Source: Aquimarina mycalae
Lineage (GTDB): Bacteria; Bacteroidota; Bacteroidia; Flavobacteriales; Flavobacteriaceae
Reading direction: 5' to 3'
Assembly: GCF_029906345.1 (NCBI RefSeq)
Contig: NZ_JARYGY010000007.1
Coordinates: 310,001-374,000 of the forward strand
DNA: 64,000 nt
The number at the start of each line of letters is the position of its first letter. The stretch's first letter is position 1. Positions 22,158 to 44,571 of the stretch are shown here, one piece after another. The notes beneath the pieces were generated by a model that was not told the origin of the DNA, did no database searches, and worked only from the letters and a program-made list of their open reading frames with translations. The position numbers and the translations under genes are program-made.

Positions 22158-22165
22158 CCCCTTAT
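22158..22165 (+). promoter_or_regulatory. CCCCTTAT leader box, copy 1
   Basis: CCCCTTAT lies 2 bases before the ATG at 22168. The same octamer directly abuts the ATG of three surface-protein genes (24354, 27654, 37440). It is not a Shine-Dalgarno sequence. A TATCATTGC (one mismatch to the -7 consensus) lies just upstream, giving a leader of about 15 bases. Confidence 0.45.
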
Positions 22166-22167
22166 TC

Positions 22168-24123: not shown

Positions 24124-24139
24124 CTCGAATTAACATTTC

Positions 24140-24156
24140 TGCCACTTTTTGTCACC
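24140..24156 (+). promoter_or_regulatory. Period-10 direct repeat, copy 2
   Basis: TGCCACT-TTT-TGTCACC, 10-base period, followed by ATTAAAA. It lies 214 bases upstream of the ATG at 24354, the same distance as copy 3 from its gene. Confidence 0.45.
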
Positions 24157-24345
24157 ATTAAAATTCTTAAAGAAACCTTAAAGTATTGTATTATTGCAGC
24201 TGCAAAATATCGATAGAGATTTAATGTTTTACAAGGCGTAAGTGCTTTTAAAACAATTGTTTGTGAATATTGTCTGGTTTTTGTCCAGCACTTTTTACTT
24301 GAAATTTTAATACAAATCGGTTTATTTGCTACAACTTTGATAAAG

Positions 24346-24353
24346 CCCCTTAT
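24346..24353 (+). promoter_or_regulatory. CCCCTTAT leader box, copy 2
   Basis: CCCCTTAT immediately precedes the ATG at 24354, with AG just before it (AGCCCCTTAT). Identical context to the 27654 gene. Confidence 0.45.
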
Positions 24354-27300
24354 ATGAAAAGAAAACTACACCTACTAGTATTCACTTTATTTGTTGGAAA
24401 TTACCTAACGCTTACAGCACAAACGCAAAACTATGTTGCTGGAGGTGCCCCGACACCAATTGAATCCACAACGACTAATACCCCTGCTCCTTATGATGGA
24501 ACACAAACTTTTGCACCAGGTTCTTCGTTGACTACTGGTGATTGGAATGTTTTTCTAGGATCTGGAGCAGGAGCTTCTGTGGATAGAGCTAGTTACAATA
24601 TATTTATTGGTCCTATGGCAGGTGCTGCTTATAATTTGAGTCCAACTGGCAGTAATTCAGATAATATTATCATAGGAGCTTTTGCAGGAGATCAAATCAC
24701 ATCAGGTGTTGATAATGTATATATTGGCAAATTTGTGGCACGTACTGCATCTGGAACGGATAACGTAGTGATTGGTGCGGAGGCAGGGTTGTCCTTAACC
24801 AGCGGATTTGATAGTGTAATTATTGGAGAACAAGCTGGGTACTCATTAACTACTGGTGGTGACAATGTAATCATTGGAGAAGATGCTGGATATAATTTAA
24901 CCACAGGTTCAGATAACTGTTTTATAGGAAGTAGAGCTGGAGTAGAAAATACCACGGCAAGAGGTAATACTTTTGTTGGAGGAGAAGGAAATAATTCTGT
25001 TCCTAGTTCTTTAGGTGATGGAGTGACATACTATTTTGATGTCTATTCAAATGCAGTTGGAGAAGACAATACAACAGGAGAGGCTAACACTTTTATTGGG
25101 TCTGGAGCTGGAGCTGATAATGAAGATGGTTTTGCTAATACTTTTTTAGGATATGGTTCTGGATCTAATAATGAATTTGGTGATGGTAATACGTTTTTAG
25201 GATATGCTGCAGGTTTTGATAATAATCGTACTAGATCTTCAACTAATGCCAATAGAAACACTTATGTAGGAGCATTAACAGGAGGGACGAATAGAGAAGG
25301 TTCAGACAACGTAGGTATGGGATGGAAAGCTGATTTTATAGATAATGGAAACTTAGCAAATACCATAAATCATAGAAATGTTTTTATTGGAGCAGAAGCG
25401 TCAGTATTTGGAAATGATCAGGTTGTTATTGGTAATCAGGCTAGAGCTAGAGGAAATATAGGATCAATTACTATAGGATCTCAAAGTAGTACTACTAAAG
25501 CATATGCAGCAGCTATAGGATATGACGTGGATGTAACAACTGCAAATACTATGGCTTTAGGCGGCAATACAAGTACAAACAGAATGAGTGTAGGTATTGG
25601 TACTGTATCTGCAAATCAAAATGCTTCTTTAGAATTGGCAGATACAGATAAAGGTTTTTTGATCAATAGAGTAACCACAGTACAACGTACAGCAATGGAA
25701 ACGTCTGCTGCTAGTGGTAGTGCACTTACAACTACAGATGCAGGATTGATGGTGTATGATACTGATTTAACTTCTATTTTTATATGGAATGGTACGGACT
25801 GGATAAATTCTACCCAAGATATCGATACGGATACTGACAATCAAATCATTGATGTTTTTCAACTTGATGGAAATAACTTACAATTGTCTTTACAGGATGA
25901 TGCAGAGGATACTAAAAATGTAGATTTATCTGGATACTTAGACAATACAGATGAGCAGGCAATTTCACTATCTACAAACACATTAAGTATCACAGGAAAT
26001 TCATCTATAGTTGATCTTTCCGATTATTTAGATAATACAGATAATCAAGATTTAGAGTTGTCTAATAATACTTTGAGTTTAAGCAATGATACTACCAGTG
26101 TTGATCTTTCTAGTTATTTAGACAATACAGATAATCAGGATTTAGAGTTGTCTAATAATACTTTGAGTTTAAGCAATGATGCTACCAGTGTTGATCTATC
26201 TACTTACTTAGATAATACAGATGCTCAAAGTATATCTTTAGCAACAAATACGTTGAGTATTTCTGGTAATGTTTCGACTGTTGATCTTTCTAGTTATTTA
26301 GATAATACGGATGCTCAAGATTTAGAACTTTCAAATAATGAATTAAGTTTGACTAATGATGCAAGCAGTGTTGATTTGTCGAGATATTTGGATAACACGG
26401 ATGCACAATCAATTACATTGGCAACAAATACGTTGAGTATTTCAGGAAATGCTTCTACCGTAGATTTATCAGGATATCTTGATAATACGGATGCTCAAGA
26501 TTTAGAACTTTCAAATAATGAATTAAGCTTGACTAATGATGTAAGCAGTGTTGATTTGTCGGGATATTTGGATAACACGGATGCTCAATCAATTTCGTTG
26601 GCAACAAATACGTTGAGTATTTCAGGAAATGCTTCTATCGTAGATTTATCAGGATATCTTGATAATACCGATGCTCAAGAGCTTTCCTTAAATGGTACTA
26701 CCTTAAGTATTTCTGGAGGAACAAATATTATTGATCTTTCACCTCTTCAAGATGGATCGGGAACCGATAACCAAACATTGGATTTAAACAACAATAGGTT
26801 GAGTATAAGTGATGGTAACGTTATTGATCTTACGGCATATGTTAATACCGATACTCAAAATCTTACTGCTGCAACTTTAACAGGAACAGATCTTACTATA
26901 GAAATTCAAAATGGAAATTCGGTATCTGTAGATTTGACACCACTTATTTCTAATTTACAAGCGGATCTAAATACTGCACAAAATCAGGTAGCCACCTTGC
27001 AAAGTCAAATGACGGATGTTTTGGAAAGATTGCAAACACTAGAAGAATGTGCTTGTGAGCCACTAGGAGTAGAAGATGTTCCAGATGGAAAAGCAAATAC
27101 TCCTAAGTTATATCAAAATATTCCTAATCCTTTTAATGGAACTTCTTCTATAAAATACTACCTGCCTTTAAACACAAATAAAGCTGCAATGGTATTTAGT
27201 GATGGAAGCGGAAAAGTAATTTCTAATGTACCATTATATGATCGTGGTGATGCAGAATTGGATATTAATAGTGAAGGTCTTACCGCTGCAGTATATTATT

Positions 27301-27356
27301 ATACACTTTATGCCGAAGGACAAAAGGTAGCAACCAAACGTATGGTAATAGAATAA
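24354..27356 (+). CDS. Type IX-secreted surface protein with head-like and 30-residue repeats
   Basis: 1000 residues. Signal peptide ends near LTAQ (about 23). Residues ~65-360 hold YadA-head-like repeats (DNVVIGAEAGLSLTSG, DNVIIGEDAGYNLTTG). A linker includes KGFLINRVTTVQRTAM, as in the 18916 protein. Nine perfect-length 30-residue repeats (YLDNTDAQ...LSISGN...VDLS) cover about 528-797. A coiled coil (about 870-900) is followed by a type A C-terminal sorting domain (LYQNIPNPFNGTSSIKYYLP to MVIE), marking type IX secretion and surface anchoring. Probable adhesin. Neighbours are two TPR-HTH regulators and another giant surface gene. Confidence 0.85.
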   Translation: MKRKLHLLVFTLFVGNYLTLTAQTQNYVAGGAPTPIESTTTNTPAPYDGTQTFAPGSSLTTGDWNVFLGSGAGASVDRASYNIFIGPMAGAAYNLSPTGSNSDNIIIGAFAGDQITSGVDNVYIGKFVARTASGTDNVVIGAEAGLSLTSGFDSVIIGEQAGYSLTTGGDNVIIGEDAGYNLTTGSDNCFIGSRAGVENTTARGNTFVGGEGNNSVPSSLGDGVTYYFDVYSNAVGEDNTTGEANTFIGSGAGADNEDGFANTFLGYGSGSNNEFGDGNTFLGYAAGFDNNRTRSSTNANRNTYVGALTGGTNREGSDNVGMGWKADFIDNGNLANTINHRNVFIGAEASVFGNDQVVIGNQARARGNIGSITIGSQSSTTKAYAAAIGYDVDVTTANTMALGGNTSTNRMSVGIGTVSANQNASLELADTDKGFLINRVTTVQRTAMETSAASGSALTTTDAGLMVYDTDLTSIFIWNGTDWINSTQDIDTDTDNQIIDVFQLDGNNLQLSLQDDAEDTKNVDLSGYLDNTDEQAISLSTNTLSITGNSSIVDLSDYLDNTDNQDLELSNNTLSLSNDTTSVDLSSYLDNTDNQDLELSNNTLSLSNDATSVDLSTYLDNTDAQSISLATNTLSISGNVSTVDLSSYLDNTDAQDLELSNNELSLTNDASSVDLSRYLDNTDAQSITLATNTLSISGNASTVDLSGYLDNTDAQDLELSNNELSLTNDVSSVDLSGYLDNTDAQSISLATNTLSISGNASIVDLSGYLDNTDAQELSLNGTTLSISGGTNIIDLSPLQDGSGTDNQTLDLNNNRLSISDGNVIDLTAYVNTDTQNLTAATLTGTDLTIEIQNGNSVSVDLTPLISNLQADLNTAQNQVATLQSQMTDVLERLQTLEECACEPLGVEDVPDGKANTPKLYQNIPNPFNGTSSIKYYLPLNTNKAAMVFSDGSGKVISNVPLYDRGDAELDINSEGLTAAVYYYTLYAEGQKVATKRMVIE
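25935..26744 (+). repeat. Nine 90-bp in-frame tandem repeats
   Basis: YLDNTD units begin at 25935 and recur exactly every 90 bases to 26655 (9 units, no indels). Units of two types mostly alternate: A (SISLATNTLSISGN) and B (DLELSNNELSLTND), so the later array looks like amplified 180-bp dimers. DNA identity between same-type units is very high. Confidence 0.85.
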
Positions 27357-27423
27357 GTAATTCTTACTTAGAATTGCTATTGTTAAAAAGATGATTTTTA
27401 GAAATAAGATATATACGTATAAA
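27357..27423 (+). other. Weak hairpin after the 24354 gene
   Basis: GTAATTCT (27357-27364) and AGAATTGC (27370-27377) pair as an 8-bp stem with a 5-base loop, but only a poor T-run follows. It could be a weak terminator. No AUAAGGG loop element is present here, unlike the other two surface genes. Confidence 0.3.
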
Positions 27424-27439
27424 CTCGAATTAACATTTT

Positions 27440-27456
27440 TGCCACTTTTTGTCACC
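27440..27456 (+). promoter_or_regulatory. Period-10 direct repeat, copy 3
   Basis: TGCCACT-TTT-TGTCACC, identical to copy 2, 214 bases upstream of the ATG at 27654. Confidence 0.45.
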
Positions 27457-27643
27457 ATTAAAACTCTTAAAAAAACCTTAAAGCATCGTATTATTGCAGT
27501 TGCAAAATATTGATAGAGATTAAGTATTTTAAAAGTTGTAAATGCTTTTAAAACAATTGTTTGTAAATATTGTCTGGTTTTTGTCCAGGACTTTTTACTT
27601 GAAATTTTAATACAAATCGGTTTATTTGCTACAACTTTGATAA

Positions 27644-27653
27644 AGCCCCTTAT
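27644..27653 (+). promoter_or_regulatory. AGCCCCTTAT leader box, copy 3
   Basis: Ten bases abutting the ATG at 27654. They are the exact reverse complement of ATAAGGGGCT at 35525-35534 in the 3' region of the same gene. Confidence 0.5.
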
Positions 27654-30600
27654 ATGAAAAGAAAACTACCTTTCGTTTTTTTATTGTTACTTAATTGTGC
27701 ATTAGTTGCACAGGAAACCGCCATTCCAGACGTAAACTTTGAAAACTATTTAGAAACCCATGATGCAGATGGAAACACAGTTGCTGTTGGAGATGTTAAT
27801 AGTTTAGGAAATGGTGTAGAGTTTGATGGTCTAGTAACTACAGCTAGAATAGCGGTGGTAACTTCCTTGGATATTTCTGTGAATTTTATAGCTGACATCA
27901 CAGGAATCGAAGATTTTACCGCTTTAGAATCTTTAGATTTTTCTGCCACAGGAGTTGGTGATTTCGATCTTTCTAATAACATAAATTTAAAGCATTTAAA
28001 GTGTTCTTCGGTAGGTTCTAGTAATATTGATGTAAGCTCAAATGTTAATTTAGAAACCTTGGATGTATCTAATAATAGTATGCTTTCAATTGATGTAAGT
28101 GCTAACATCAAGTTGAAAGAACTTAATATTTCTACCAATGGTACAACTTCTTTAAACTTAGGAAGTGTTTCTACCCTAGAAAACCTAAATGTTAGTAATA
28201 ATAACTTAAGTAGTCTCGATGTAACTAATCTTTCAAATGTTACTGATTTAAATTGTGATACAAATTATGTTTTAAATATTTCTGATTTTAGCCCATTGAC
28301 AAGTCTAGTCAATCTAAATTGCAGTAATACCAACTTGGGGAGTTTAGATGTATCTAATAATGTATTGTTAGAAACGCTTACAATTAATTTTATGTCAGGT
28401 TTTCATTTAGATCTTTCTAGTAATACAGCGTTAACAAGTTTATCGGCTAACAGTAGTGATTTAAATAGTTTAAATATTCAAAATGGAAATAATGCCAATA
28501 TCACTTCTTTTGATGCTCGTTTTAATCAGTTTACATGTATACAAGTAGATGATCCTAACGCCGCTTATTTAAGTTCCTGGCAAAAAGATAACACAGCTTT
28601 TTTTCAATTAGATTGTAGTGAAACTAATATTCCTGATGAAAATTTTAAATATCATTTAGAAAATCATGATGCTAATGGTAATGTAGTTGCTGTTGGAAGC
28701 CCAAATAGTATGGGGAATGGAATTTTGGATGATGGAAAAGTTTTCACTTCGAGAATCAAAGATGTTACGTTTTTAAATATCTCAGGAAATAGTATTGACG
28801 AACTAGACGGATTAGAAGCCTTCGAATCCCTTGAAATATTAGATTGTTCGGATAACAATTTTAATGAGTTTGATTTTTCTCAATTACCAGAATTAAAAGA
28901 ACTATATATACATGATCTGTTTTTCGCAGTATTAAATTTATCGAGCAACTTGAAAATAGAAAAGTTGATCTATAACAATGCAAACAGTACCTCTTTAAAC
29001 CTAGGAAATAATAATGTAATTAAAGAGTTAGATATCAGTAATAATAACATCAGCTCATTAGACATTCCTTCGTATCCATCTTTAGAGATTTTGAATATAG
29101 CAAACAATGGGCAACTTTACAGAATCGATGTTCGTCTTTTAACAAACTTAAAGTACCTTAATGCTAACGAAAATGGCTTGTTTAGTTTAGATGTTCGTCA
29201 GAATGTGTTATTAGAAACACTTGCTATTGATAGTGCTTCAGGGTTTTATTTAGATCTTTCCAATAATACTGCATTAACCAGTTTTTCGGCTAATGAAAGT
29301 GACTTGAATAGTCTAAACATGAAAAATGGTAATAATGCTAATGTTACTTTTTTTGAAGCAAGACTAAATCAATTTAGTTGTATTGAAGTAGATGATCCTA
29401 CAGCATCCTATTTGAATACTTGGGATGTGGATAATAATGTAGAATTTCGTTCAGATTGTAGAGAGACCAATGTTCCTGATGATAATTTTGAAAATTATCT
29501 AGAAACTCATGATGCAGATGGAAATGTAGTTTCTGTTGGTGATGCTTCTAGTATGGGAAATGGTATTGCTAATGATAATACTGTGTATACTTCAAGAATA
29601 GAAAGTGTTATAGAATTAGATATTTCGGGATTAACCATCACTGATGCCACAGGTATTGAAGATTTTGTAGCATTACAAACGTTAAACTGTTTCAATAATT
29701 CAATATCTAGTATCGATCTTTCACAGAATGTAGCATTACAAACCATAGCTATAGGAAGAAATAACCTTACAAGCTTAGATTTATCACAAAACCCAGCATT
29801 AACTTTTGTAAGTTGTTTACGAAACCAAATTACAAACTTAAATGTTTCCCAGAATACAATGTTGGAAACTTTAGGATGTAGTAATAACCAGCTCAATAAC
29901 CTTGATGTTACCAATAACCCAGCATTAAAAACACTATCATGTTACACTAATCTTCTTGGTAGTTTGGATGTAACACAAAATCCATTATTAGAAGATTTGG
30001 ATTGCGTAGATAATCAGCTTACCGTTCTGGACGTTTCTCAAAACTTAGAATTATTAGAATTACAGGCTTATGAGAATTCGTTAACAAGTCTTGATGTAAG
30101 TAATAATGTAAAGCTAGTCGAGTTATTTATAGAAGATAACCAAATTACGAGTTTAGATGTTTCAAAAAACACAGTTCTAGAAGATTTATCTTGCGCATAC
30201 AATGCATTAACTTATCTCAATATAAGAAACGGGAATAATGCGAATTTAAACCCTAGCGATTTTGACATTCGCAATAATCCAGGATTAACATGTGTATCAG
30301 TAGATGATGTAACATATGCTAATACAACATTTACCAGAAAAGATGTTCAAACTGAATATAAACTGTTTTGCTCGGAAACCTATGTACCTGACGATAACTT
30401 TGAAGCATATTTAGAAACACATAACGAATTTGGTACCGTAGTGCCTGTTGGTGATCCAACTAGTTTAGGTAATGGTATTGCTAATGATGATTATGTAGGA
30501 ACGGAAAGAATACAAAACGACATCATTTTAGATCTTAGTAATCAAGGAGTCGCTGATTTTACGGGATTAGAAGATTTTGAAAACGTAGAAAGATTGTATA

Positions 30601-33600
30601 CAAATAGCAATACAATTTCCAACTTAGATCTTACGGCAAATACAAAACTAATTGAAGTAAGCTGCCAGTCTATGGGACTTACCAGTTTAAATATTTCAGG
30701 ATTAACTTCATTAGAAATAGTAAGAGCTAGAGATAACAATTTATCAATGATAGATGTAAGCTCTAATGTAGCATTGCATACCTTAAATTTAGATGATAAT
30801 AATTTTAGCAACATAGATTTAAGTGCAAATGCTGCACTAATTGATTTTAGAATAAGAGAAAATACGATAAGCACCTTAGACCTTTCAAGCAATATTAATT
30901 TAAAGAGTTTATATGTAGATGATAATTCACTATCCACTCTAGATGTATCAAATAATACGCTAATAGAAACATTACGATGTGGAGGGAATCAATTTACAAC
31001 CATTGATATAGGTTTACTTACTAATCTTGATAGTTTTTCTATAGAAGATACACCAACACTTACGGTATTAGATATTACTAATAATACTAATCTCGAAGAT
31101 ATCGATGTTAGTAATACAACATTATCTGTATTAGATATTACGAATCAAATTAGCCTAGTAGAGCTTTATACAAACAATACTACAATTACTGATTTAGATT
31201 TTAGTAATAGCCCAGATATAGAATATGTAGAGTGTCAAAATGGACAATTAATATCCTTAAACTTTAAGAATGGAGCTAATAATAGTGGGATGGAAGTATA
31301 TGCTACTGGAAATCCAAATTTAGTATGTATACAAGTTGATGATCCTACAGCTAGTTATTTGAGTAGTAGTAGCTGGGAAAAAGATGCTACTGCTAGTTTT
31401 AGTGATGATTGTAATTGGACTTATGTGCCTGATGATAATTTTGAAAATTATTTAGAAACCCATACCGCTACAGGAGGATTCGTTTCGGTTGGAGATCCAA
31501 CAAGTATGGGTAATGGAATTGCCAATGACAATTATGTAACTACTGCTAATATTGAAAATGTAATAACCCTATTTTTAAATTTTCAAGGAATTACAGACTT
31601 TACAGGAATTGAGGCTTTTGCTTCTTTAGAGTTTGTAGTGTGTTCTGGTAATGTAATAAATACAAGTTTAGACTTTACTAGTAACACAAGTCTGAAAAGA
31701 ATTGATGCTTCTGATATGGGATTAACCAGCATTGATATTACAGGATTGACTCTTTTGGAAAGAATTGATGTTTCACGAAATAATTTTACAACGATTGATC
31801 TTTCCACAAATACTGCTTTAAAAGAATTAATAGTTTCTTCTAATGAGTTATCTGGTTTAGATCTAAGTAATAATATCTTATTAGAAGATTTACAAATTCA
31901 TGAAACAACATTAAGTAGTATTGATCTAAGCGTCAATGTGAATTTAACCAGAATTATAGCTTCTTTAAATCAATTTACTTCGTTAAATACTCAAAATAAT
32001 ACATTATTAGAAACTTTAAATTTAGTAGGAAACCCATTCACTTCTTATGATGTAAGTCACTTGCCAAACCTTCAAGATTTAAATTTAGGCGAAACCAATA
32101 TTACTTCAATTGATATTAGTAAGAATGCTAATTTGGTAGAATTTGATGCAAGAGATATTAATGAATTAGTAGAGCTGAATGTTAAAAATGGGAACAATAA
32201 CAACTTTACAGAATTTAGGGTAACGGGTTGTCCTAATTTAACTTGTATTGAAGTAGATGATCCAACTGCAGGTTATTTGTCGGGTTGGGAGAAAGATGCC
32301 ACTGCAAGTTTTGCCGAGTATTGTCGATTTACAACGATTCCTGATGCTAATTTTGAAGCCTATTTAGAAACTCATAACGAATTTGGAGGAACTGTTGCTT
32401 TAGGAAGTGCCAATAGCTTAGGAAATGGAATTATTGATGATAATTTAGTACCTACTGGAAAAATTGAAGCAATTCAATTGTTAACTCCAAGAAATGAGGG
32501 GATACAAGATTTCACAGGAATTGAAGATTTCACAAATTTAATTCGTTTTTGGATCGATGATAATCCACTAACGAATACCGATTTAGATTTAACGAACAAT
32601 CTACTATTAGAAACTGTAACTGCTGAGAATACAGGGATTACGAGTATTAATATAGCAGGGTTAATCGTATTAAGAGGTTTAGGAGCACCAAATAATAGTC
32701 TTACTACTATAGATATCTCTACCAATACAGGCTTAAAGTTTTTAAACCTAGCAGATAATGATCTAACTACTATAGATGTAAGTAATAATGATTTGACAAG
32801 CTTAACAGTTACCAATAACAGATTAGGTACGATTGATGTTAGTGGTCAAACCAATCTAGTCTCTTTATACTGTGAGAATACCAATATTACTACCTTAAAT
32901 ATTCAAAATAATGCGTTGTTAGAAAACTTAGAATGTGGTCTGAATCCATTGAGTAACCTAGATGTGACTCATCTTTCTGAGCTTCGCTATTTATCATTTA
33001 ATACTACGAGTATTTCAGAGATAGACTTAAGTAATAATACTAACTTAAGTAGATTAGAATGTGATAGTACGCCGCTCACCTATTTGGATTTAAGTAATCA
33101 GAATACTTTGGATAATTTATCGTGTAAAAATGCACTTCTTACAGGTCTGAATTTAAGAAGTGGTAACAATACAGATTTGGATAATATAGATGTTACGGGT
33201 AATCCAAGTTTATCTTGTATTTCTGTTGATGATCCAGCTGCTGCAGTATTATTAGGAACTTGGTTAAAAGATGCTACTGCTAATTATGCAGAGTTCTGTA
33301 GGTTAACTTATGTGCCTGATGATGCTTTTGAGACTTTTTTAGAAAACCAAGGGTATGGTAACGGAGTAATTGACGATTATGTATATACTGCATTAGTAGA
33401 GGTCTCAGAAGGATTTAACCTGCATAATGGATTAGTTGCAGATATGACAGGTATCGAAGACTTTAGAGATATGTGGTTCTTAGGATGTCGTAACAATACG
33501 AATTTAACAAGTATTGATTTAAGTAAAAATACGAAGTTAACTACAGTTACTTTAGCGAATAATAATCTAACAAGTTTAGACTTAAGTAATAATCTGTTAC

Positions 33601-35477
33601 TAGAAAAAATATATATAGATGGCAATGCTAATTTAGGACCTGTAGATGTTTCTATGCTTAGTAGTTTAAATACACTTAGTATCTCCAATACGGGTATTAA
33701 CTCAGTAGCTATTTCTAATAATCCATTATTAAGATTATTGAATGTTAATGATAATAATTTTACAGAATTAGATATCTCTGCATATCCAAATATTATTCAA
33801 TTAAGAATTGCCAATAATCAATTAACCTCGTTGAATGTTGCAAATGGAAATAACGATAATTTCACGTGGTTTGATGCTTTAGGAAATCCTGATTTAACTT
33901 GTATTAAAGCTGATAAAGTAGTTCAGTTATATCCAGATATTTGGCAAAAAGATGCTACAGCTAGTTTTGCATTATATTGTGATCTAACGTATATCGCAGA
34001 TGTAAATTTTGAAAACTACTTAGAAACCCATGATGCTGATGGAAATGTAGTTACAGTAGGTGATCCTTTAAGCATGGGTAATGGAATCGTTAACGATAAT
34101 GAGGTACCAACATCAAAAATAGAAACGGTTGTTGAGTTAAATGTTGAAAGCCAGGATATAGCGGACCTTACAGGAATAGAAGATTTTACCACGCTAGAAT
34201 CACTGAATGTAGATTATAACGATTTAACAACTTTGGATATAAGTAGTATTGTTAACTTGAAAATTTTAGATGCAGCAGAAAATGATTTTATCTCACTAGA
34301 TTTTACAGGTCACCCTAGCTTAGAAGAAGTGGAGTTAAGATCAAATTCGATAACTAGTTTGCTGGTGGATAATAATCCGACTTTGAGAGTTTTAGGGGTT
34401 GGTAAAAATGCTTTGACCAGTCTTGATGTAAGCTCTTGTATACAACTCGAAGAACTTGCTGCTCATCAAAACCTGTTAGAATCATTGAATGTTCAAAACG
34501 GTAATAACAATTTAATAACTGACTTTTTTGTTCTTTATAATCCTGATTTAAGCTGTATCCAGGTAGATGATGCTAACGCAAGTTATTTATCTAGTTGGGA
34601 GAAAGATGCTACTGCAAGTTTTAATACCAACTGTAGTTTTGTGACGATATCACCAAAAGTATTTCTACAAGGAGCGATGCTCAATCCCAATGCTGGCGAA
34701 GAAAGCTGGATGCGCGATGATCTTAGAGTTACAGGGTATATTCCTAATGCTTCTCCTACAGAGCCTTCTTTTATAAATGCAGGAGTATTAGACGTTACGG
34801 GAGCAGATGCTATTGTGGATTGGGTAATTATAGAACTTCGAAATTCAACAGATAATACAAATATTGAAGGCCTTGTGGGAGCATTGTTACAAAGAGATGG
34901 CGATGTAGTGGCTTTGGATGGTGTGTCTCCAGTAATTTTATACGAACTACCAGGCGACTATTATGTAGTGATTAAACACCGTAATCACTTAGGTGTTATG
35001 TCAGCCAATACAGTATCATTATCACAATCCACAACCAGTATTGATTTTACTGATGGTAGTGTTACTACTTATGGAACTAATGCGCAAACAACTTTTGGGA
35101 TGCCAACAGGAGTATCAGCGATGTGGGCAGGAGATGCTAACGATGATGGTAAGATAAACCTGATCGGAAGTCCTAACGATAGTAATGAGATCGTAAATGC
35201 AATACTGAATGATCCACTAAATATTTTTGGCCTTTATGGATATAATATTTCGGGATATACTGCTGTGGATATGAATCTAAGTGGGAATACTCAGATCATA
35301 GGAGCTAATAATGATGCGAGTTTGATCAATAATAATATCCTGAATCATCCATCTAATATTTTTAATCTATATGGATTTATAATTACAGAACAATTGCCAG
35401 AAATGATTAGTACCAAACAAATGACAAGGGATAAAGCTTTATCAATAAAGGCTAAGAGCTTAAGCAAAGAACAATAA
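27654..35477 (+). CDS. Giant leucine-rich-repeat surface protein, eight modules
   Basis: 2607 residues, signal peptide ending near LVAQE. Eight modules of about 230-345 residues each open with a (I/V)PDxNFExYLETHDxxG...GNG segment, continue with short irregular LRRs (LDVSNNxxLExLxxxxNxL) and close with a CIxVDDPxAxYLSxWEKDATASF...C segment. Module starts lie near 27723, 28626, 29470, 30387, 31423, 32337, 33313 and 33998; the seventh lacks most of the opening segment. The last ~290 residues are a non-LRR region with dockerin-like AGDANDDGKINL. No canonical type A sorting domain is seen at the end. Probable exported adhesin. Confidence 0.85.
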   Translation: MKRKLPFVFLLLLNCALVAQETAIPDVNFENYLETHDADGNTVAVGDVNSLGNGVEFDGLVTTARIAVVTSLDISVNFIADITGIEDFTALESLDFSATGVGDFDLSNNINLKHLKCSSVGSSNIDVSSNVNLETLDVSNNSMLSIDVSANIKLKELNISTNGTTSLNLGSVSTLENLNVSNNNLSSLDVTNLSNVTDLNCDTNYVLNISDFSPLTSLVNLNCSNTNLGSLDVSNNVLLETLTINFMSGFHLDLSSNTALTSLSANSSDLNSLNIQNGNNANITSFDARFNQFTCIQVDDPNAAYLSSWQKDNTAFFQLDCSETNIPDENFKYHLENHDANGNVVAVGSPNSMGNGILDDGKVFTSRIKDVTFLNISGNSIDELDGLEAFESLEILDCSDNNFNEFDFSQLPELKELYIHDLFFAVLNLSSNLKIEKLIYNNANSTSLNLGNNNVIKELDISNNNISSLDIPSYPSLEILNIANNGQLYRIDVRLLTNLKYLNANENGLFSLDVRQNVLLETLAIDSASGFYLDLSNNTALTSFSANESDLNSLNMKNGNNANVTFFEARLNQFSCIEVDDPTASYLNTWDVDNNVEFRSDCRETNVPDDNFENYLETHDADGNVVSVGDASSMGNGIANDNTVYTSRIESVIELDISGLTITDATGIEDFVALQTLNCFNNSISSIDLSQNVALQTIAIGRNNLTSLDLSQNPALTFVSCLRNQITNLNVSQNTMLETLGCSNNQLNNLDVTNNPALKTLSCYTNLLGSLDVTQNPLLEDLDCVDNQLTVLDVSQNLELLELQAYENSLTSLDVSNNVKLVELFIEDNQITSLDVSKNTVLEDLSCAYNALTYLNIRNGNNANLNPSDFDIRNNPGLTCVSVDDVTYANTTFTRKDVQTEYKLFCSETYVPDDNFEAYLETHNEFGTVVPVGDPTSLGNGIANDDYVGTERIQNDIILDLSNQGVADFTGLEDFENVERLYTNSNTISNLDLTANTKLIEVSCQSMGLTSLNISGLTSLEIVRARDNNLSMIDVSSNVALHTLNLDDNNFSNIDLSANAALIDFRIRENTISTLDLSSNINLKSLYVDDNSLSTLDVSNNTLIETLRCGGNQFTTIDIGLLTNLDSFSIEDTPTLTVLDITNNTNLEDIDVSNTTLSVLDITNQISLVELYTNNTTITDLDFSNSPDIEYVECQNGQLISLNFKNGANNSGMEVYATGNPNLVCIQVDDPTASYLSSSSWEKDATASFSDDCNWTYVPDDNFENYLETHTATGGFVSVGDPTSMGNGIANDNYVTTANIENVITLFLNFQGITDFTGIEAFASLEFVVCSGNVINTSLDFTSNTSLKRIDASDMGLTSIDITGLTLLERIDVSRNNFTTIDLSTNTALKELIVSSNELSGLDLSNNILLEDLQIHETTLSSIDLSVNVNLTRIIASLNQFTSLNTQNNTLLETLNLVGNPFTSYDVSHLPNLQDLNLGETNITSIDISKNANLVEFDARDINELVELNVKNGNNNNFTEFRVTGCPNLTCIEVDDPTAGYLSGWEKDATASFAEYCRFTTIPDANFEAYLETHNEFGGTVALGSANSLGNGIIDDNLVPTGKIEAIQLLTPRNEGIQDFTGIEDFTNLIRFWIDDNPLTNTDLDLTNNLLLETVTAENTGITSINIAGLIVLRGLGAPNNSLTTIDISTNTGLKFLNLADNDLTTIDVSNNDLTSLTVTNNRLGTIDVSGQTNLVSLYCENTNITTLNIQNNALLENLECGLNPLSNLDVTHLSELRYLSFNTTSISEIDLSNNTNLSRLECDSTPLTYLDLSNQNTLDNLSCKNALLTGLNLRSGNNTDLDNIDVTGNPSLSCISVDDPAAAVLLGTWLKDATANYAEFCRLTYVPDDAFETFLENQGYGNGVIDDYVYTALVEVSEGFNLHNGLVADMTGIEDFRDMWFLGCRNNTNLTSIDLSKNTKLTTVTLANNNLTSLDLSNNLLLEKIYIDGNANLGPVDVSMLSSLNTLSISNTGINSVAISNNPLLRLLNVNDNNFTELDISAYPNIIQLRIANNQLTSLNVANGNNDNFTWFDALGNPDLTCIKADKVVQLYPDIWQKDATASFALYCDLTYIADVNFENYLETHDADGNVVTVGDPLSMGNGIVNDNEVPTSKIETVVELNVESQDIADLTGIEDFTTLESLNVDYNDLTTLDISSIVNLKILDAAENDFISLDFTGHPSLEEVELRSNSITSLLVDNNPTLRVLGVGKNALTSLDVSSCIQLEELAAHQNLLESLNVQNGNNNLITDFFVLYNPDLSCIQVDDANASYLSSWEKDATASFNTNCSFVTISPKVFLQGAMLNPNAGEESWMRDDLRVTGYIPNASPTEPSFINAGVLDVTGADAIVDWVIIELRNSTDNTNIEGLVGALLQRDGDVVALDGVSPVILYELPGDYYVVIKHRNHLGVMSANTVSLSQSTTSIDFTDGSVTTYGTNAQTTFGMPTGVSAMWAGDANDDGKINLIGSPNDSNEIVNAILNDPLNIFGLYGYNISGYTAVDMNLSGNTQIIGANNDASLINNNILNHPSNIFNLYGFIITEQLPEMISTKQMTRDKALSIKAKSLSKEQ

Positions 35478-35502
35478 AATCCCTTATTAAAGAAACTTTA
35501 AT

Positions 35503-35593
35503 GTTGTAAATACCAATTACAGAGATAAGGGGCTGTGAAAGGATATAAAATTTACAACTATATAAACCATCTAAGCAATTAGGTGGTTTTTTT
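35503..35593 (+). ncRNA. Structured 3' element with AUAAGGGG loop and GNRA terminator
   Basis: 25 bases after the stop: outer stem GTTGTAAAT (35503-35511) with ATTTACAAC (35550-35558); inner stem TTACAG (35517-35522) with CTGTGA (35533-35538) exposing loop AGATAAGGGG; then a terminator ACCATCTAA-GCAA-TTAGGTGGT (35566-35587) plus T-run. The same architecture, with compensatory changes, follows the 37440 gene at 44301-44388. Loop plus stem bases 35525-35534 are complementary to the 27644-27653 leader. No known RNA family was recognised. Confidence 0.6.
35566..35593 (+). terminator. Terminator of the 2607-residue gene
   Basis: Nine-base stem with one G-T pair, GCAA tetraloop and six T. It forms the 3' end of the element above and is followed by the convergent regulator gene. 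Confidence 0.85.
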
Positions 35594-35610: not shown

Positions 35611-37281
35611 TTAATGTTGAAAAAGCCTCTGGATAAACAATTCTAGCTCTTCTCCTTTAGGAACATTCAGTTTTTTTCGAATCCGATAACGTGTAGATTT
35701 AATAGAAGGCATTGAGGTATTTCTGATATTCATGATTTCCTTAAGACTTAGATTAAGATACATCATATGACACACTTCTCGTTCTGATTTTGTGAGCTGA
35801 GGAAATTGTTCAGTGAGCCTTAACAAGAAAGCTTCATCTGTAAGCTCTAATGAATCGGATACACTATCTAGTCGTTGTTCTGTTTGTATTTGATTTTTTA
35901 ACTGAACCAAAATTGATTGATAATCTTCTATTACACCAATACTTTTTCCTTGCTCTTGTAGTGGTTTAATTTTTTGTAATAATTCTTCTTTAAAATCAGC
36001 ACGTAATTTATTATCAGCCATCAAACGTTCAATCTTGAAACGTAAAAAATTTACTTTTTCAGTAAGAAGACCAGTTTCTAATTCTTGTTGTTGTATGTTT
36101 TGTTGATCAATTTTTCGACGATATCTGAAGATTATATATATACCGATCAATCCAAATAATGTTAATAGAAATAAAATCGCATACAACTGTTTTTGCGAAC
36201 GTTGGGATTTAGCAATCGTAGTTAGTTGAAATTCTTGAGCTTTATAATTCAAACTATCCCTTAACTTTTCTTTTTCGAATTGATACTCCAGCTCTAGAGA
36301 TCTTATCTTTTCAGTCTGGGTTTGCGTAAAAGCAGAGTCTTCATATTTTTGATAGGTTTTGTAATATGATAATGCTTGTTCAAAGTTTTGTTCTTTTGTT
36401 GCAATTCGATAGCGTTCTTTATATAATAATCCGATTAATTTTTTGTTCCCATACCCATAGGCTATTTTTTGAGATCTATTCAGATATTGTCTTGCTTTAG
36501 AATAATCTTTAAGTTTTCGTGCAGTAATGGCAAGATCTTTTAAGGTGTTTGCCTGTCGTTCCAACTCTTCGTGTTGCTCATAAATAGCTAGGTTTTCTTT
36601 TTGTATAATATGAGCTTCTTGATACCTTTTTTGTGTATTATACACACGAGCGATGTTTATGTTTGCATCCGCACGTTTCATATGATTTCCAAAATACACT
36701 TTCGCACTATCCAATATTATTAACGCAGAGTCTAGTTTTTTAATACGGTACAAAAAATATCCATAACTTTTTAGAGAAATAGCATAATCAATGCTGTCTC
36801 CAAGACGCCTGATAGGTAATGCTTTTTTCATATAATAAATAGCCTTGTCCATATTGCGTTGTGAACCAAAAAGTGTAGCTATATTATGAAAAGAACGCCC
36901 AATATTAATAGTGTCACCAGCTTGTTCTTTTACACGTAATGCATCTAGATAATATGCAAAAGCTTTGTCATAATTGTTTCTTCTTCGTTCTATAATTCCT
37001 AGACAATCATAGGCTAATGCTATCATTGTTAATTTGTCATTATATACGTAGTCTCCTTGAAGTCGTTTCAATGCTTGTTTAAAAAAGTCTTCTGCTTTTT
37101 TTGGTTGAGAAGTATCCATTAAGATACCTAATTCCATAGCATGTCGTACCCATGTTGAATCCGAAGATGCATTTTGAAACAAGATATTGATAGAATCGAT
37201 TTTATGCTGGTTCACTTGTCCAAATCCCATAAAAAAACCTATCGACCACCAACTTAAAAATAAAATTATGATTCTTTTCAT
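35611..37281 (-). CDS. TPR-transmembrane-HTH regulator, third copy
   Basis: 556 residues from ATG 37281 (MKRIIILFLSWW...). Signal sequence ends near GFGQ. TPR units cover about 20-330 (LGIIERRRNNYDKAFAYYLD is typical), then a transmembrane helix (LYAILFLLTLFGLIGIYIIF), coiled coil, and HTH (LTKSEREVCHMMYLNLSLKE ... IKSTRYRIRKKLNV). The C-terminus is very close to that of the 20409 protein. It is divergent from the 37440 surface gene, with 158 bp between starts; a direct-repeat site lies in that gap. In-frame TTG codons upstream of 37281 are rejected as starts. Confidence 0.82.
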   Translation of the reverse strand: MKRIIILFLSWWSIGFFMGFGQVNQHKIDSINILFQNASSDSTWVRHAMELGILMDTSQPKKAEDFFKQALKRLQGDYVYNDKLTMIALAYDCLGIIERRRNNYDKAFAYYLDALRVKEQAGDTINIGRSFHNIATLFGSQRNMDKAIYYMKKALPIRRLGDSIDYAISLKSYGYFLYRIKKLDSALIILDSAKVYFGNHMKRADANINIARVYNTQKRYQEAHIIQKENLAIYEQHEELERQANTLKDLAITARKLKDYSKARQYLNRSQKIAYGYGNKKLIGLLYKERYRIATKEQNFEQALSYYKTYQKYEDSAFTQTQTEKIRSLELEYQFEKEKLRDSLNYKAQEFQLTTIAKSQRSQKQLYAILFLLTLFGLIGIYIIFRYRRKIDQQNIQQQELETGLLTEKVNFLRFKIERLMADNKLRADFKEELLQKIKPLQEQGKSIGVIEDYQSILVQLKNQIQTEQRLDSVSDSLELTDEAFLLRLTEQFPQLTKSEREVCHMMYLNLSLKEIMNIRNTSMPSIKSTRYRIRKKLNVPKGEELELFIQRLFQH

Positions 37282-37322: not shown

Positions 37323-37339
37323 TGCTACCTTTTGCTACC
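37323..37339 (+). promoter_or_regulatory. Period-10 direct repeat, copy 4
   Basis: TGCTACC-TTT-TGCTACC, a perfect repeat with 10-base period, followed by ACTAAAAT. It lies in the divergent region 42 bases from the regulator start (37281) and 100 bases before the 37440 ATG. Confidence 0.5.
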
Positions 37340-37431: not shown

Positions 37432-37441
37432 CCCCTTATAT
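37432..37441 (+). promoter_or_regulatory. CCCCTTAT leader box, copy 4
   Basis: CCCCTTAT at 37432-37439 abuts the ATG at 37440. CCCTTATAT (37433-37441, including the first two start-codon bases) is the exact reverse complement of ATATAAGGG at 44322-44330 in this gene's 3' region. Confidence 0.5.
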
Positions 37442-40400
37442 GAAACACCTTTACATTACACTATTATTTATTGTTAGTTCTTTTTATGGCATGTTTGCTC
37501 AAGATGCGTTTATTACCACCTGGCAAACTACATCAACTAATGAAAGTATTGCGATACCAACAGCAGGATCTGGATACAACTATTCTGTAGATTGGGGAGA
37601 TGGAACTATTGAAAGCGGTTTTATCGGAGACACCACACATGAATATGCTGTAGCAGGAACGTATACTGTAAGTATTACAGGGGATTTCCCAAGGATTTAT
37701 TTTAATAACTCAGGTGATAAAGATAAAATTAGAACCATAGAACAATGGGGTACGATTTCATGGGCTAGTATGGCATCTGCTTTTTACGGATGTTCAGGAT
37801 TAACCTTAAATGCAGATGACACTCCTGATTTATCTGCCGTAACTGATGTATCTCAAATGTTTAGAGGAGCAAGAAGCTTCGTAGATGCTAAGGATAATAT
37901 TGGAATCTGGAATGTAAGTACGGTTACCAATATGTCTAATATGTTTAGAGTAGCTTCCGATTTTAATGAAAACATCTCTTCATGGAATGTGGGGAATGTT
38001 ACCAATTTCTCATTCATGCTCAGTACTACCAATATCTTCAACCAAAACTTAAATACTTGGAATATTGGAGAAAATGTCACAGGTACTATCAATATGAGTG
38101 GAATGTTTGATTCTACATTAGCTTTTAACCAACCGTTAAATGACTGGGATGTGAGTAAGGTAACTAACATGTCTGGAATGTTTGGTGTAACTCCACAATT
38201 TAATCAACCATTAAATAACTGGGATACGGGTAATGTATCCAATATGGGCGGAATGTTTTTTGGAGCGAACAAATTTGATCAAAACTTAGGTGACTGGAAT
38301 CTTTCTAGCATTACTAATATGTCAAGTATGTTTCAACAATCAGGATTATCAACAGAAAATTATGATGCCATCTTGATCGGATGGGCAACTCAAGATATAG
38401 GAGAAACGATACCTTCTAATATAAGCATCAGTTTTGAAGGAAGCCAATATTGTTTTGGAGCTGACGCTAGAAATACATTAACTGATAGTACTGGATTAAA
38501 TTGGAATATTGATGATGATGGGGCTGCTTGTAGTGCTACAGATTTTTTTACCACCATCTGGCAAACTGCTATGGATAATGAAAGTATCACAATTCCAACA
38601 ACAGGAAGCGGATATGATTACGATATAGATTGGGGAGATGGAACCATAGAAACAGGTTTTACAGGGAATGCTACGCATCAATATTCTATAGCAGGAACGT
38701 ATACGGTAAGTATTACAGGAGATTTCCCGAGAATTTATTTTAACAACTCTAATGATAAAGACAAGATTATTAGTGTTAATCAATGGGGTATTATTGAGTG
38801 GACTAGTATGGAATCTGCATTTTATGGGTGTACAAATTTAACTGTTGATGCTAGTGATACTCCCGATTTAACAAACAGTACTACTTTAAGAGCTATGTTT
38901 AAGGGTAGTACGAATTTGATAGATGTACAAGGAACCTTCCCATTCTGGAATGTAAGTACCATAGTAGATTTTGGTCAGATGTTTATGAATACTGACAAGT
39001 TTAATACTTCTTTAATTTCGTGGAATTTTAGTGTAGCAGAAGATTTTTCAGAAATGTTTAGGGGAGCAAAGGTGTTCAATCAATCACTAGGTATCCCTTT
39101 TAAAGCAAAAACCTTCGAAGGTATGTTTAGAGATGCTGTGGCCTTTAACCAACCTTTATTTTGGTATACACCTGATGTGATTTCTTTGAAAGATATGTTC
39201 GATGGTGCTACAAGTTTCGATCAGAATTTAGGGTCTTTTACTATAAATTCTGTTACCGATATGACAGGAATGTTTACTAATGCAGGATTATCTACACAGA
39301 ATTATGATCAAACACTTGCAGGCTGGTTTTTAGAACGAAGTGTGAATGATACGCGTCCAAATGATATCACCTTTGATGGCGGTAACAGTCAATATTGTCT
39401 GGCAGGAGATATTATAGAAAAATTAACCGATGATCATGGATGGCAAATAACAGATAGCGGTCCTGGCTGCGATGAAAGTGATGTTTTTGAGATGACCTGG
39501 GATCTAACTAGTGAAAATAGATTCACTATGCCAACTTCAGGAAATGGATATGACTATACGCTTAGCTTATCAAATGGGGAGATTTTTTACGTAACCAGTG
39601 ATATAGTTCAAGTATCATATAGTGAAAATATCGGAATGTTAACGGTTCGTATTTATGGAGATTTTCCAAGATTTGACTTTGATGCTCCATTTGTAGATAA
39701 AGAAAAATTAGCTAGTATAGAACAATGGGGAAGCCTACAACTTTTAGAAGCTAATGCAGCTTTTGAAGGTTGTACTAATTTGGTTTTGAATGCAACGGAT
39801 ACTCCAGATTTGAGCCAGATTCAGTTTATGGATCGAATGTTTGAAAATACTTCATCATTTGTAGACAATGGTGGCGAAATGAATAACTGGGATGTCAGCA
39901 CTGTAACTAGTATGACTGGTCTTTTTGAACGATCGGCTTTCAATGAAAATATCAATGACTGGGATGTAAGTAAGGTGGAGGATTTTTCTAGTATGTTTAA
40001 AAATAATACGTCATTTAATCAGCCATTAAATAATTGGAATACTGAGAAAGCCAATGATCTAACTAATATGTTTGATGGAGCAACGGCTTTTAATCAACCT
40101 ATCGGAATGTGGAATACAGCGTTGGCTCAATATTTTGATTTTATGTTTCTAAATGCATCCACTTTTAATCAGAATCTTGGAAGCTGGGATATTAGTAATA
40201 CAGATAGAAATTCAATGGACGGTATGCTTACAGGTTCTGCAATGTCTCAAATAAATTATGATGCTACACTAATAGGTTGGGCTACATTAGAAAGTGGAGA
40301 AATACAAATACCTACCGATGTCAAGTTGGATGCAGATACTTTTTATTGTTTATCAGAAACCGCTAGAAATACGTTAACGGGTGCTCCCTATAACTGGACC

Positions 40401-43400
40401 ATTAATGACTTAGGAAATTCTTGTCCAGAAGATGCATTTATTACTACATGGCAAACTACTACTACTAATGAAAGTATTACTATACCAACCAATGGTTCTG
40501 GATATAATTATATAGTAGATTGGGGAGATGGAACTATAGAAACAGGTTTTACAGGGAATGCTACGCATCTGTACGCAACAGCTGATACTTATACAGTAAA
40601 GATTACTGGAGATTTTCCAAGGATTTATTTTAACAATACTGGAGATATAGAAAAGATTCAATCCATTGAGCAATGGGGAACTCAACCGTGGAAAAGTTTT
40701 CAAAATGCTTTTTCAGGATGTTCGCAACTTCAAATTACTGCTAACGATGCTCCTGACTTATCAGATGTTACCAATCTTACAAATATGTTTAGATCTTGTA
40801 CCTCTTTAGATACTCCAGATTTTTCTAATTGGGACACCAGTTCTATTACTGTAATGAAAGAAATGTTCTATCGAGCAAATAACTTTGATGGGAATATTAC
40901 TAATTGGGATGTTGGTAAGGTAACAAGTTTTGAATTAATGTTTTATGAGGCATTTAAATTCAATCAAAATATTAGTAATTGGAATATAGGAGAGTCTGTG
41001 AGTACTAAGGTTATTAATATGAACAGTATGTTCTCTACAGCATCATCTTTTAATCAGCCTATTGGAAGTTGGGATTTAGGTAAAGTTTTAAATATTAGAA
41101 GTATGTTTTTTAGAGCAGGTGCATTCAATCAACCTTTAAACTCTTGGAATATTTCAGGAATGGGTACCTTAAAAAGATTGTTTTTCTCTGCATCAAGATT
41201 TAATCAACCTCTGGATTCTTGGGATGTATCTACTATTTCTAATATGGATGAAATGTTTTGGGGAGCTTCTTCGTTTAATCAAAATTTAGGTGATTGGAAT
41301 GTTAGTGAAGTTACAATAATGAATAGATTATTTTTAAGTACAGCTATGTCCACCGCTAATTATGATGCTACACTTATCGGTTGGGCTACTTTAGAATCTG
41401 GGGAAACACAAATTCCAGCTAATTTAACGTTAGATTCTAGTAGTTTTTACTGTTTAGCAGAAACTGCCAGAAATACCTTAACCAGTGCTCCCTATAACTG
41501 GACCATTAATGACTTAGGGAATTCTTGTCCTGAAGATTTCTTTATTACTACATGGCAAACTACTACTACTAATGAAAGTATTACTATACCAACCAATAGT
41601 ACTGGATATAATTATATAGTGGATTGGGGAGATGGAACTATAGAAACAGGTTTTACAGGGAATGCTACGCATCAATATGCGACTGGTGGAACTTATACAG
41701 TAAAAATTACAGGTGATTTCCCAAGAATTCGTTTCAATACTAGTGTAGTGGGTAATCAAAGTAAAATACAAACTATAGAACAATGGGGAACCCAACAATG
41801 GGATACTTTTTCTAGTGGTTTTAATGGATGTGTCAATTTAAAACTGAATGCAGATGACGTACCAGATTTATCACAAGTTACACAACTGTCTAGTATGTTT
41901 GAGGGTTGTACCAATTTTGAAGACCTAAAGAATACCATTGGATCTTGGGATGTGTCGACTATTGAACGTATCGATAGTATGTTCACAGCTTGTAGCATTT
42001 TTGATGAAGATATTAGTGGATGGGTATTTACCAATCTTATAAGAACGGATTCTGCTTTTGAAGAAGCCTTTTTATTTAATCAGAACATTTCTAATTGGAA
42101 TATGGCTACCGTTACAGATATGGCGTATATGTTTTACGATGCTGAGGCTTTCAACCAACCTATTGGCAATTGGACATTAGGAACGGTGGAATATATGACA
42201 GGAATGTTTTCTGGCGCTCTAGCTTTTAATCAAGATTTAACTAATTGGGATTTTAGTCAGGTTCAGGAAATAGAAGAACTATTTTCAAGAGCATCCTCGT
42301 TTGATCAAGATCTATCTAGCTGGGATATTTCAAGTGTAACAAGCATGACAGGGATATTTACCGATGCTGGTTTATCACAAGCAAATTATGATGCTATACT
42401 AACTGGATGGGCCAGTTTAGAAACTGGAGAAACACAAATTCCAGTTAATTTAACTTTGGACGCTAGTAGTTTTTATTGTTTAGCAGAAACTGCCAGAAAT
42501 ACCTTAACCAGTGCACCTTTTAATTGGACGATTAACGATTTAGGAAATGCTTGTCCAGAAGATCCGTTTATTACTATCTGGCAAACTACCGCGGAAAATC
42601 AATCGATACGAATACCAAAGCATCCTTCTTCTTCTGGGTATAACTATATAGTAGATTGGGGAGATGGAACTAAATCTTTGAATCAAACAGGAACAGTTAC
42701 TCATGAATACGCTTCTGCAGGAACCTATACCGTAAAAATTTATGGAAACTTCCCTCATCCATATTTTGATAATTTAAGTACAGATGTTAAACTTCGACTG
42801 TTAACGATTGAACAATGGGGAACTCAGCAATGGACATCAATGGTAAGTGGTTTCGAAGACTGTCCTAATCTCAAATTAAATGCAGATGATAATCCTGATT
42901 TTTCGCAATTGACCAATGTAGAAGATATGTTTAGAAAGTGTACCAATTTTGAGGATCTTAAAGACAAAATAGGTAGTTGGGATATGAGTACTGTTGAAAA
43001 TATCAGTTTTATGTTTGATGCTTGTACTATTTTTAATGAGGATATAACGCAATGGACATTTACCAATCTAAAAGATGCAGGTTATGTATTTAAAAATACA
43101 ATGGCATTCAATCAAAATATTTCGAATTGGAATGTAAGTACTGTAGAAACTTTTGAATCGATGTTTGAAGGTACTGCAGCATTCAATCAACCTATCGGTA
43201 CCTGGACCATTGGAACTGTTGATTATATGATTAGTATGTTTAAAAATGCTACTGCTTTCAATCAAGACCTAAGCGGTTGGAATATGAGTAATGTTGAAGA
43301 CTTAGAAGATATGTTTGAAGGCGCATCAAATTTTGATCAAAATCTTGGAGGATGGGATATTAGTAATGTTATATATATGGATGAAATGTTTATAGGTACA

Positions 43401-44063: not shown

Positions 44064-44095
44064 CATAGAACTATAATTTACTTTTTTGCAAAAAA

Positions 44096-44169
44096 GGTGT
44101 TATGGAGTTAAGGGGTCGTAATGCCATTAACCTTGCAAAGCAAACCATTCACCATAGGTGAGTGGTTTT
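44096..44169 (+). ncRNA. Degenerate 3' element with UAAGGGG and terminator
   Basis: TTAAGGGG (44108-44115) lies between imperfect arms GGTGTTATGG and CCATTAACC, followed by a terminator ACCATTCACC-ATA-GGTGAGTGGT (44144-44166) plus TTTT. It resembles a decayed copy of the 35503 and 44301 elements, but the loop is less complementary to the leader. Confidence 0.4.
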
Positions 44170-44300
44170 GTTATAGTAAAACTGTAGTTATAGGTAGTTG
44201 GTAACAACTAAATTAAAATAGAATAAATCGTATTATCGATAGTTAAAAGCCTAAAAAAAAAATGAGTATACATTAGTAAATAGCCCAACAATATTTTAAA

Positions 44301-44388
44301 AGTTGTAAACATTGATTACAGATATAAGGGCTGTAATTGGATGAGGTATACAACTATCTAAACCATCCAAGCAATTGGATGGTTTTTT
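44301..44388 (+). ncRNA. Structured 3' element with AUAUAAGGG loop and GNRA terminator
   Basis: Outer stem AGTTGTA (44301-44307) with TACAACT (44349-44355); inner perfect stem ATTACAG (44315-44321) with CTGTAAT (44331-44337) exposing exactly ATATAAGGG; terminator ACCATCCAA-GCAA-TTGGATGGT (44362-44383) plus T-run. Relative to 35503-35593 the terminator stem shows a compensatory U-A to C-G change and a G-U/A-U difference, supporting real RNA structure. Confidence 0.6.
44362..44388 (+). terminator. Terminator with GCAA tetraloop
   Basis: Perfect nine-base stem, GCAA loop, five or more T. It ends the 3' element above, more than 300 bases after the stop of the 37440 gene and after an earlier terminator at 44144. 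Confidence 0.85.
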
Positions 44389-44571
44389 ATAAATATCTAC
44401 GCATTTATTATTGTGAATTAATCAATAAAATATCAAAAGTTGTAAAAAACACCCCAATAGTTATGTTAAAAAAGTAATTTTATTTTGTAACTTGACTGAA
44501 ATTTATGAGAATTTGTTGTATAATAGATTTCTTGTTATATTTTTAGAGTAAAACCCAAAATCAATCAAACT

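Follow-up and report, generated by a model that had tools for sequence, protein, structure and literature searches.

Conserved 3'-UTR hairpins of giant secreted-protein genes in Aquimarina may pair with a shared start-codon leader

To our knowledge, post-transcriptional control in Flavobacteriia is little charted. Here we describe a family of structured 3' elements behind giant genes of Aquimarina mycalae, together with a short leader just ahead of start codons, in a stretch of 64,000 nucleotides (nt), called the window in the following (RefSeq assembly GCF_029906345.1, contig NZ_JARYGY010000007.1, positions 310,001 to 374,000, forward strand). Several described systems resemble this arrangement. 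OppZ and CarZ of Vibrio cholerae are autoregulatory small RNAs (sRNAs) derived from 3' untranslated regions (UTRs) (PMC7398697). They are located past the stop codon of their target operon, with predicted pairing at the start region of their own mRNA, as are the elements described here. In the icaR mRNA of Staphylococcus aureus, 5' and 3' UTR pair with each other (PMC3868564), again through a short motif in the 3' UTR that is the complement of the region where the ribosome binds this mRNA. Rfp18 of Flavobacterium psychrophilum is likewise a structured flavobacterial RNA, the third stem-loop of which is predicted to pair with several mRNAs of secreted proteins (PMC9723704). GibS of Bacteroides thetaiotaomicron, also from the Bacteroidota, is an sRNA that pairs around start codons in a genus without obvious Hfq, as in the Aquimarina genome (PMC7366714). 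A description of the hairpin-leader family itself was not found in the literature searches, which covered mainly article listings and abstracts. Sequence comparison suggests that messages of giant surface proteins in Aquimarina may control their own expression and that of adjacent genes through RNA pairing.

The decamer AGCCCCTTAT at 27644-27653 on the forward strand adjoins the start codon (ATG 27654) of a gene for a leucine-rich-repeat protein of 2607 amino acids (aa), and its exact reverse complement ATAAGGGGCT occurs at 35525-35534, 48 nt past the stop codon, just as an earlier note on this DNA had claimed. The note had placed ATAAGGGGCT in a hairpin loop; in the predicted fold this holds for 8 of the 10 nt (35525-35532), while the last two (CT) belong to the stem. 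A second CCCTTATT after the stop, which according to the note could compete for the same loop, is present as well, at 35481-35488 and thus one base before the 35482-35489 given earlier. Such a competitor is a feature of this copy and not a general one, as CCCTTAT is located ahead of the hairpin in 1 of 26 copies. The similar CCCTTTAT occurs there in 4 of the 26. A single complementary pair is by itself only suggestive, because 6 matches to the decamer with one mismatch allowed were found in the window at 3.08 expected, and 11 of 100 shuffled sequences reach 6. The complementarity is above chance because it is repeated, in five structured elements and in 26 of 26 loop cores, and because the hairpins are linked to and co-occur with the leaders. 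It is real and represents one case of a family. The features concerned are:

27644..27653, + strand: leader AGCCCCTTAT, abutting ATG 27654, with the core CCCCTTAT at 27646-27653
27654..35477, + strand: gene of the 2607-aa leucine-rich-repeat protein, host of the first element
35503..35593, + strand: first 3' element, class A, with stems P1 (35503-35510/35551-35558) and P2 (35517-35522/35533-35538)
35523-35532, + strand: loop of the first element, AGATAAGGGG, in the predicted fold
35525..35532, + strand: loop stretch ATAAGGGG, complementary to the leaders
about 35564-35589, + strand: terminator hairpin and U-run of the first element, from the sequence
44085..44172, + strand: second 3' element, class B, 22 nt past the stop of a 2207-aa protein gene, with TAAGGGG at 44109-44115
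44302..44389, + strand: third 3' element, class A, in tandem, 239 nt past the same stop, with loop ATATAAGGG and TAAGGG at 44325-44330

The genome contains five paralogous 3' elements on two contigs, three in the window and two on contig C2 (G, C and L numbers denote genomes, contigs and loci). A loop-and-stem pattern identified four of these places in the whole genome, with no match for the reversed control, and a second model adds the fifth. The elements comprise about 90 nt and consist of an outer stem, an inner stem and an exposed loop ending in TAAGGG(G), followed by a terminator. The inner stems are TTACAG/CTGTGA in class A and CTACGA/TCGTAG in class B. In an alignment of 19 members (18 distinct), 96.6% of the cells in 25 base pairs are standard pairs and 14 pairs are changed on both sides. 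None of 500 shuffles was as high on any of five measures, and sliding the partners destroys the signal. The alignment (A7) was fitted to the first model, so that the pair counts lean towards this model; it was used because MAFFT misplaced the P1 stem of class B. The stem differences between the two classes are visible in the raw sequences too. Eight members folded singly gave z values of -3.6 to -5.2. For the element at 44085, the minimum free energy fold of the single sequence does not form the modelled inner stem exactly, and the G-rich stretch is still mostly unpaired. The covarying stems and the invariant loop indicate an RNA structure, in which the loop is, by prediction, displayed and kept constant while the stems change by compensation.

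In 36 Aquimarina genomes the second model (R2) gave 26 matches at E<1e-6, located in 7 genomes. All 26, including 7 from outside the training set, carry TAAGGG in the loop region. Weaker elements with the loop were found in two further genomes, G012 and G017, while the element of G002 is divergent and that of G023 degenerate. In the following, the wider set of hairpin-bearing genomes comprises 11 (including G002 and G023) and the strict set 7. Of the weak genus matches to R1 and R2 that were inspected, many turned out to be plain terminators or to lie within reading frames, and were rejected. The genus has some other hairpins as well. In G017, intergenic hairpins with arms containing CCCCTTGC and GCAAGGGG or similar sequences are located on C3 after 41100 and at 44531-44597, the second with another CCCCTTT between it and the following start codon, which leaves room for alternative pairings. 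Different 3' hairpins with AAGGGAGG- and TTCCTCCCTT-like arms are found after small lipoprotein-like genes of similar operons in G016 (C8 near 13661) and G017 (C3 near 73979; L300, L301).

Beyond the genus, a 20-mer pattern applied to 84,980 species revealed 30 stretches, 28 of them from Aquimarina (11 isolates or species), counted as pattern matches; the two others are probably due to chance. R2 matched 24 of 299 genomes of the family at E<=0.001, one of these being the window's own genome. For the 23 other matched genomes, among 298 others sampled, 44 of 45 matches in 24 loci do not contain the loop heptamer, and in 22 of the 23 neither TAAGGG nor AAGGGG occurs within a match. The one remaining heptamer, in G193 (L118), is located inside a stem and not in a loop. 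An element with an exposed loop was therefore not found outside the genus in the R2 search of the 298 sampled family genomes. The G193 stretch (C86:21648-21732; L118, L303) shows AGATAAGGGG paired in a stem with CCCTTTAT and then a terminator. It is located in antisense orientation behind a gene whose product has a tail resembling those of type IX secretion system (T9SS) substrates. It was rejected as a member because of this stem and its antisense position, and could be a distant relative. No match above the gathering cut-off was obtained in Rfam 15, and the weak ones were far below it. The family would be a genus-level one of multi-copy 3'-UTR hairpins, with one seed aimed at a shared start-codon leader.

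The leader is not restricted to the 2607-aa gene. CCCCTT(A) leaders precede four genes of the window instead of one, and two more at the other hairpin locus of the genome. TCCCCTTAT stands ahead of ATG 37440 and ATCCCCTTATTC ahead of ATG 22168. The further leaders of the window are:

24344..24353, + strand: leader AGCCCCTTAT, identical to that at 27644, abutting ATG 24354
37432..37439, + strand: leader CCCCTTAT, abutting ATG 37440
22158..22167, + strand: leader CCCCTTATTC, before ATG 22168 of a tetratricopeptide-repeat (TPR)/helix-turn-helix (HTH) regulator-like gene

In the hairpin regions, CCCCTT or CCCTTA was found within 25 nt of the start for 47 of 401 open reading frames (ORFs). As hosts we counted the 23 ORFs of the fetched regions with a hairpin up to 160 nt past the stop, which are giant secreted genes or, following one of these, a small gene in last position; the 2207-aa gene is absent from this count because the G-C pair rule of the script missed the element with TAAGGGG at 44109. 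With signal peptides called by a crude script rule, the leader is present in 9/23 hosts (9/21 of those with a signal peptide) and in 30/77 other signal-peptide genes of at least 500 aa, compared with 4/66 shorter signal-peptide genes and 4/237 genes without signal peptide. On a non-redundant basis the numbers are 27/63 for large signal-peptide genes versus 2/129 for genes without signal peptide in the same regions.

Checks over whole genomes matter here because the counted regions had been picked for hairpins. In the own genome, CCCCTTN{0,10}ATGA gave 43 matches, 34 of which were inspected (30 loci and the four window sites). Six lead into an ORF of 500 aa or more that begins like a signal peptide, and all six are located at the two hairpin loci. 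For G018, 9 of 18 matches to CCCCTTAN{0,6}ATGA are at or beside its two hairpin loci (C5:255-304 kb, C2:745-748 kb). By contrast, none of the matches in G020 (0/12) and G004 (0/7), where hairpins were not detected, opens a secreted ORF of this size. The tight pattern CCCCTTAWN{0,3}ATGAAA has 29 of its 39 matches in the 11 hairpin-bearing genomes and 10 in the 25 others (binomial p 1.9e-7), whereas the reversed control has 7 and 17. The strict 7 carriers account for 20 of the 39 (p 5.2e-5).

Regulation by a 3'-UTR RNA or by 5'-3' pairing, as the earlier note had proposed, fits the comparative evidence best, because the loop is constant, the stems compensate and the leaders cluster at hairpin loci and in hairpin genomes. 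The direction of this proposal was right and its scale wrong: the leader is common to several genes and the loop to several 3' elements, so that this is not the private pair of one gene. The 3' UTRs of giant secreted-protein genes would encode a conserved RNA of about 90 nt, hairpin plus terminator, which displays UAAGGG(G) in its apical loop and most likely comes free of the mRNA or remains behind as a stable 3' fragment. Its loop would pair with the CCCCUU(A) leader adjoining the start codons, both in its own mRNA and in the sibling mRNAs within the cluster, block access of the ribosome and in this way limit the synthesis of very large proteins. Duplexes predicted for matched loop and leader have energies of -10.8 to -13.4 kcal/mol and would extend over the leader as far as the start codon. 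In an uncontrolled count, 19 of 26 evaluable hairpins stand behind a chain of one to three genes that includes a leader, and 7 do not; six further hairpins were masked or cut and are outside these 26. The exact Bacteroidetes-type -7 box TANNTTTG occurs upstream of 1 of 26 hairpins. This weakly favours release by processing of the mRNA over a promoter belonging to the hairpin, yet only 8 of 43 leader genes have the box either. Taken together, we give roughly even chances to hairpins that are released as sRNAs, pair with the shared leaders and block initiation. Transcription, release and pairing in the cell are what we infer from these comparisons, as is the sign of the effect, for which repression of initiation seems likely and activation also possible. 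If true, this would be a clear and testable RNA circuit spanning a cluster, without a detected Hfq gene, that controls some of the largest secreted proteins.

Several results weigh against hairpin RNAs acting on the leaders. The plainest one against strict dependence is G027, which has leader genes without hairpin: two of the ten tight-pattern matches outside the hairpin-bearing genomes are leader genes of the same kind, and no loop-bearing element was detected in three stretches of G027 by the model or by a search for stemmed TAAGGG. One tight-pattern match in G026 opens a long signal-peptide-like ORF, and in G018, 2 of 11 inspected matches (L252, L260) lead into long ORFs at some distance from its hairpin loci. 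Several of the 29 tight-pattern matches open short or internal frames and are not leader genes. The lax pattern CCCCTTAN{0,6}ATG shows no excess over its reversed control in the genus, which led us to reject a genome-wide leader regulon. The leader is not more frequent among hosts than among the other large signal-peptide genes in their regions. No PF17209 match, indicative of Hfq, was found in the 98.8% complete genome, with the control positive in 5/14. Finally, the earlier note had suggested a test for covariation of leader and loop, and in the strict sense covariation was not observed: both cores are constant, and some leaders (CCCCAAAT, CCCCGAAT, CCCCATTAT) drift while the loops stay as they are. 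A single suggestive case (n=1) comes from G002, where the divergent loop AGGTATGTGG prefers, by predicted pairing, the divergent leader CCCCATAT; G002 keeps CCCCTTAT on another gene. As an observation of its own, the leader-bearing giant-gene clusters of G027 (C15:20567-33397 and C35:286430-298003; L298, L299) represent a useful natural control.

Leaders without detected hairpins, as in G027, are what would be expected if the two features were independent, the leader serving as an element of translation or transcription start and the hairpin as terminator with 3' stabiliser or protein site, so that the complementarity were coincidental or vestigial. The constant cores without covariation and the terminator at the end of the aligned elements are also consistent with this. 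However, two 7-mers that are each conserved separately are unlikely to match exactly by chance, with a rough estimate of <1 in 1000 if the choice of features made in the earlier note is left out of account. Nor does termination require an invariant G-rich loop, and the leader is phyletically associated with hairpin genomes. Independence of the two therefore appears somewhat unlikely to us. It is less probable still that the pairing occurs in cis only, with the loop of an mRNA folding onto its own leader as in icaR, so that initiation would depend on a complete or intact transcript. Messages with both parts do exist, for example those of the 27654 and 37440 genes, G018 292077 and G029 105550, but several hosts have no leader, and leaders are equally frequent with and without an adjoining hairpin. 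Because the hosts are not enriched in leaders and some leaders belong to regulator-like genes, the comparison tends to favour a role across the cluster over a 5'-3' clasp confined to one mRNA. A special form of such action would be a circuit of mutual silencing, in which the 3' hairpin loops target the leaders of siblings and regulator genes and the most-transcribed mRNA represses the others and itself. We regard this as decidedly doubtful; if true, it would be an RNA-only way of keeping one or few giant surface proteins dominant.

Two members, C2:111672 and window 44302, are separated from the stop codon before them by about 100 and 239 nt, a distance that would suit sRNA genes with own promoters merely sitting behind giant genes. 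This is very unlikely given that 23 ORFs are followed by a hairpin at no more than 160 nt past their stop and that TANNTTTG is nearly always missing upstream of the hairpins. A role at the DNA level, in which surface-gene cassettes duplicate and the common 5' and 3' sequences mark the boundaries where they recombine, is hardly probable at all. The loci are indeed arrays of giant repeat genes, and the 234 base pairs (bp) before ATG 24354 and ATG 27654 are 92% identical, but the upstream sequence differs at other leader genes, and covarying stems around an invariant loop speak for RNA. Release of the hairpins from the messages and pairing with the shared leaders is kept as the preferred, if uncertain, explanation.

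The cluster contains further features, which are listed here:

24354..27356, + strand: gene of a 1000-aa protein with leader AGCCCCTTAT and a weak, below-cutoff T9SS tail match
37440..44063, + strand: gene of the 2207-aa protein with DUF285/PARCEL repeats, PKD and a T9SS type A sorting domain
35611..37281, - strand: convergent TPR regulator-like gene, whose product matches the 22168 protein in its C-terminal stretch
27440..27456, + strand: direct-repeat box TGCCACTTTTTGTCACC upstream of leader genes, also at 24140-24156 and weaker at 22093-22109 and 37323-37339

The 2207-aa protein has 13 DUF285 stretches together with its T9SS tail. The DUF285/PARCEL repeat type owes its name to mycoplasma surface proteins. 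TPR protein genes are located between and beside the giant genes of the window, and the 22168 protein shows a weak, below-cutoff LuxR/GerE match. The two adjacent genes at 24354 and 27654 are different, and the near-identity of their upstream regions (24120-24353 and 27420-27653) points to a duplicated promoter-leader unit. The repeat box, TGCCACTTTTTGTCACC here and TGACACCTTTTGACACC elsewhere, precedes leader genes by about 75-215 nt. With at least 13 of 17 positions matching, it was found for 13/42 leader genes versus 4/51 large signal-peptide genes without leader, 1/68 small signal-peptide genes and 2/229 genes without signal peptide. It is a candidate site for the TPR/HTH regulators of the cluster.

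Among the known systems, the closest ones are OppZ/CarZ, icaR and Rfp18, and by sequence the pairing in Aquimarina is likely. As in OppZ and CarZ, the elements are located in 3' UTRs with an intrinsic terminator, judged by sequence, and a seed against the start region of the own mRNA or operon is present for 19 of the 26 evaluable hairpins at the level of the gene chain. In contrast, OppZ is processed by RNase E, depends on Hfq and serves one operon, whereas in Aquimarina many paralogous elements share one loop and many genes one leader, and the genome gave no PF17209 match. Complementary motifs on one presumed mRNA, as in icaR, occur for the 27654 and 37440 genes. However, the 3' motif of icaR is C-rich and pairs with a G-rich Shine-Dalgarno sequence, while in Aquimarina a G-rich loop faces a C-rich leader shared by several genes. 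Pairing of the icaR type also entails cleavage by RNase III and inhibited translation. GibS is intergenic and uses an unstructured 5' seed, unlike the loop seed found here. Rfp18, which is compared by description only, is listed among independent transcribed regions, and its deletion lowered two metalloprotease mRNAs. In the sample of 298 family genomes, not shown to include Flavobacterium, R2 found no member with an exposed loop.

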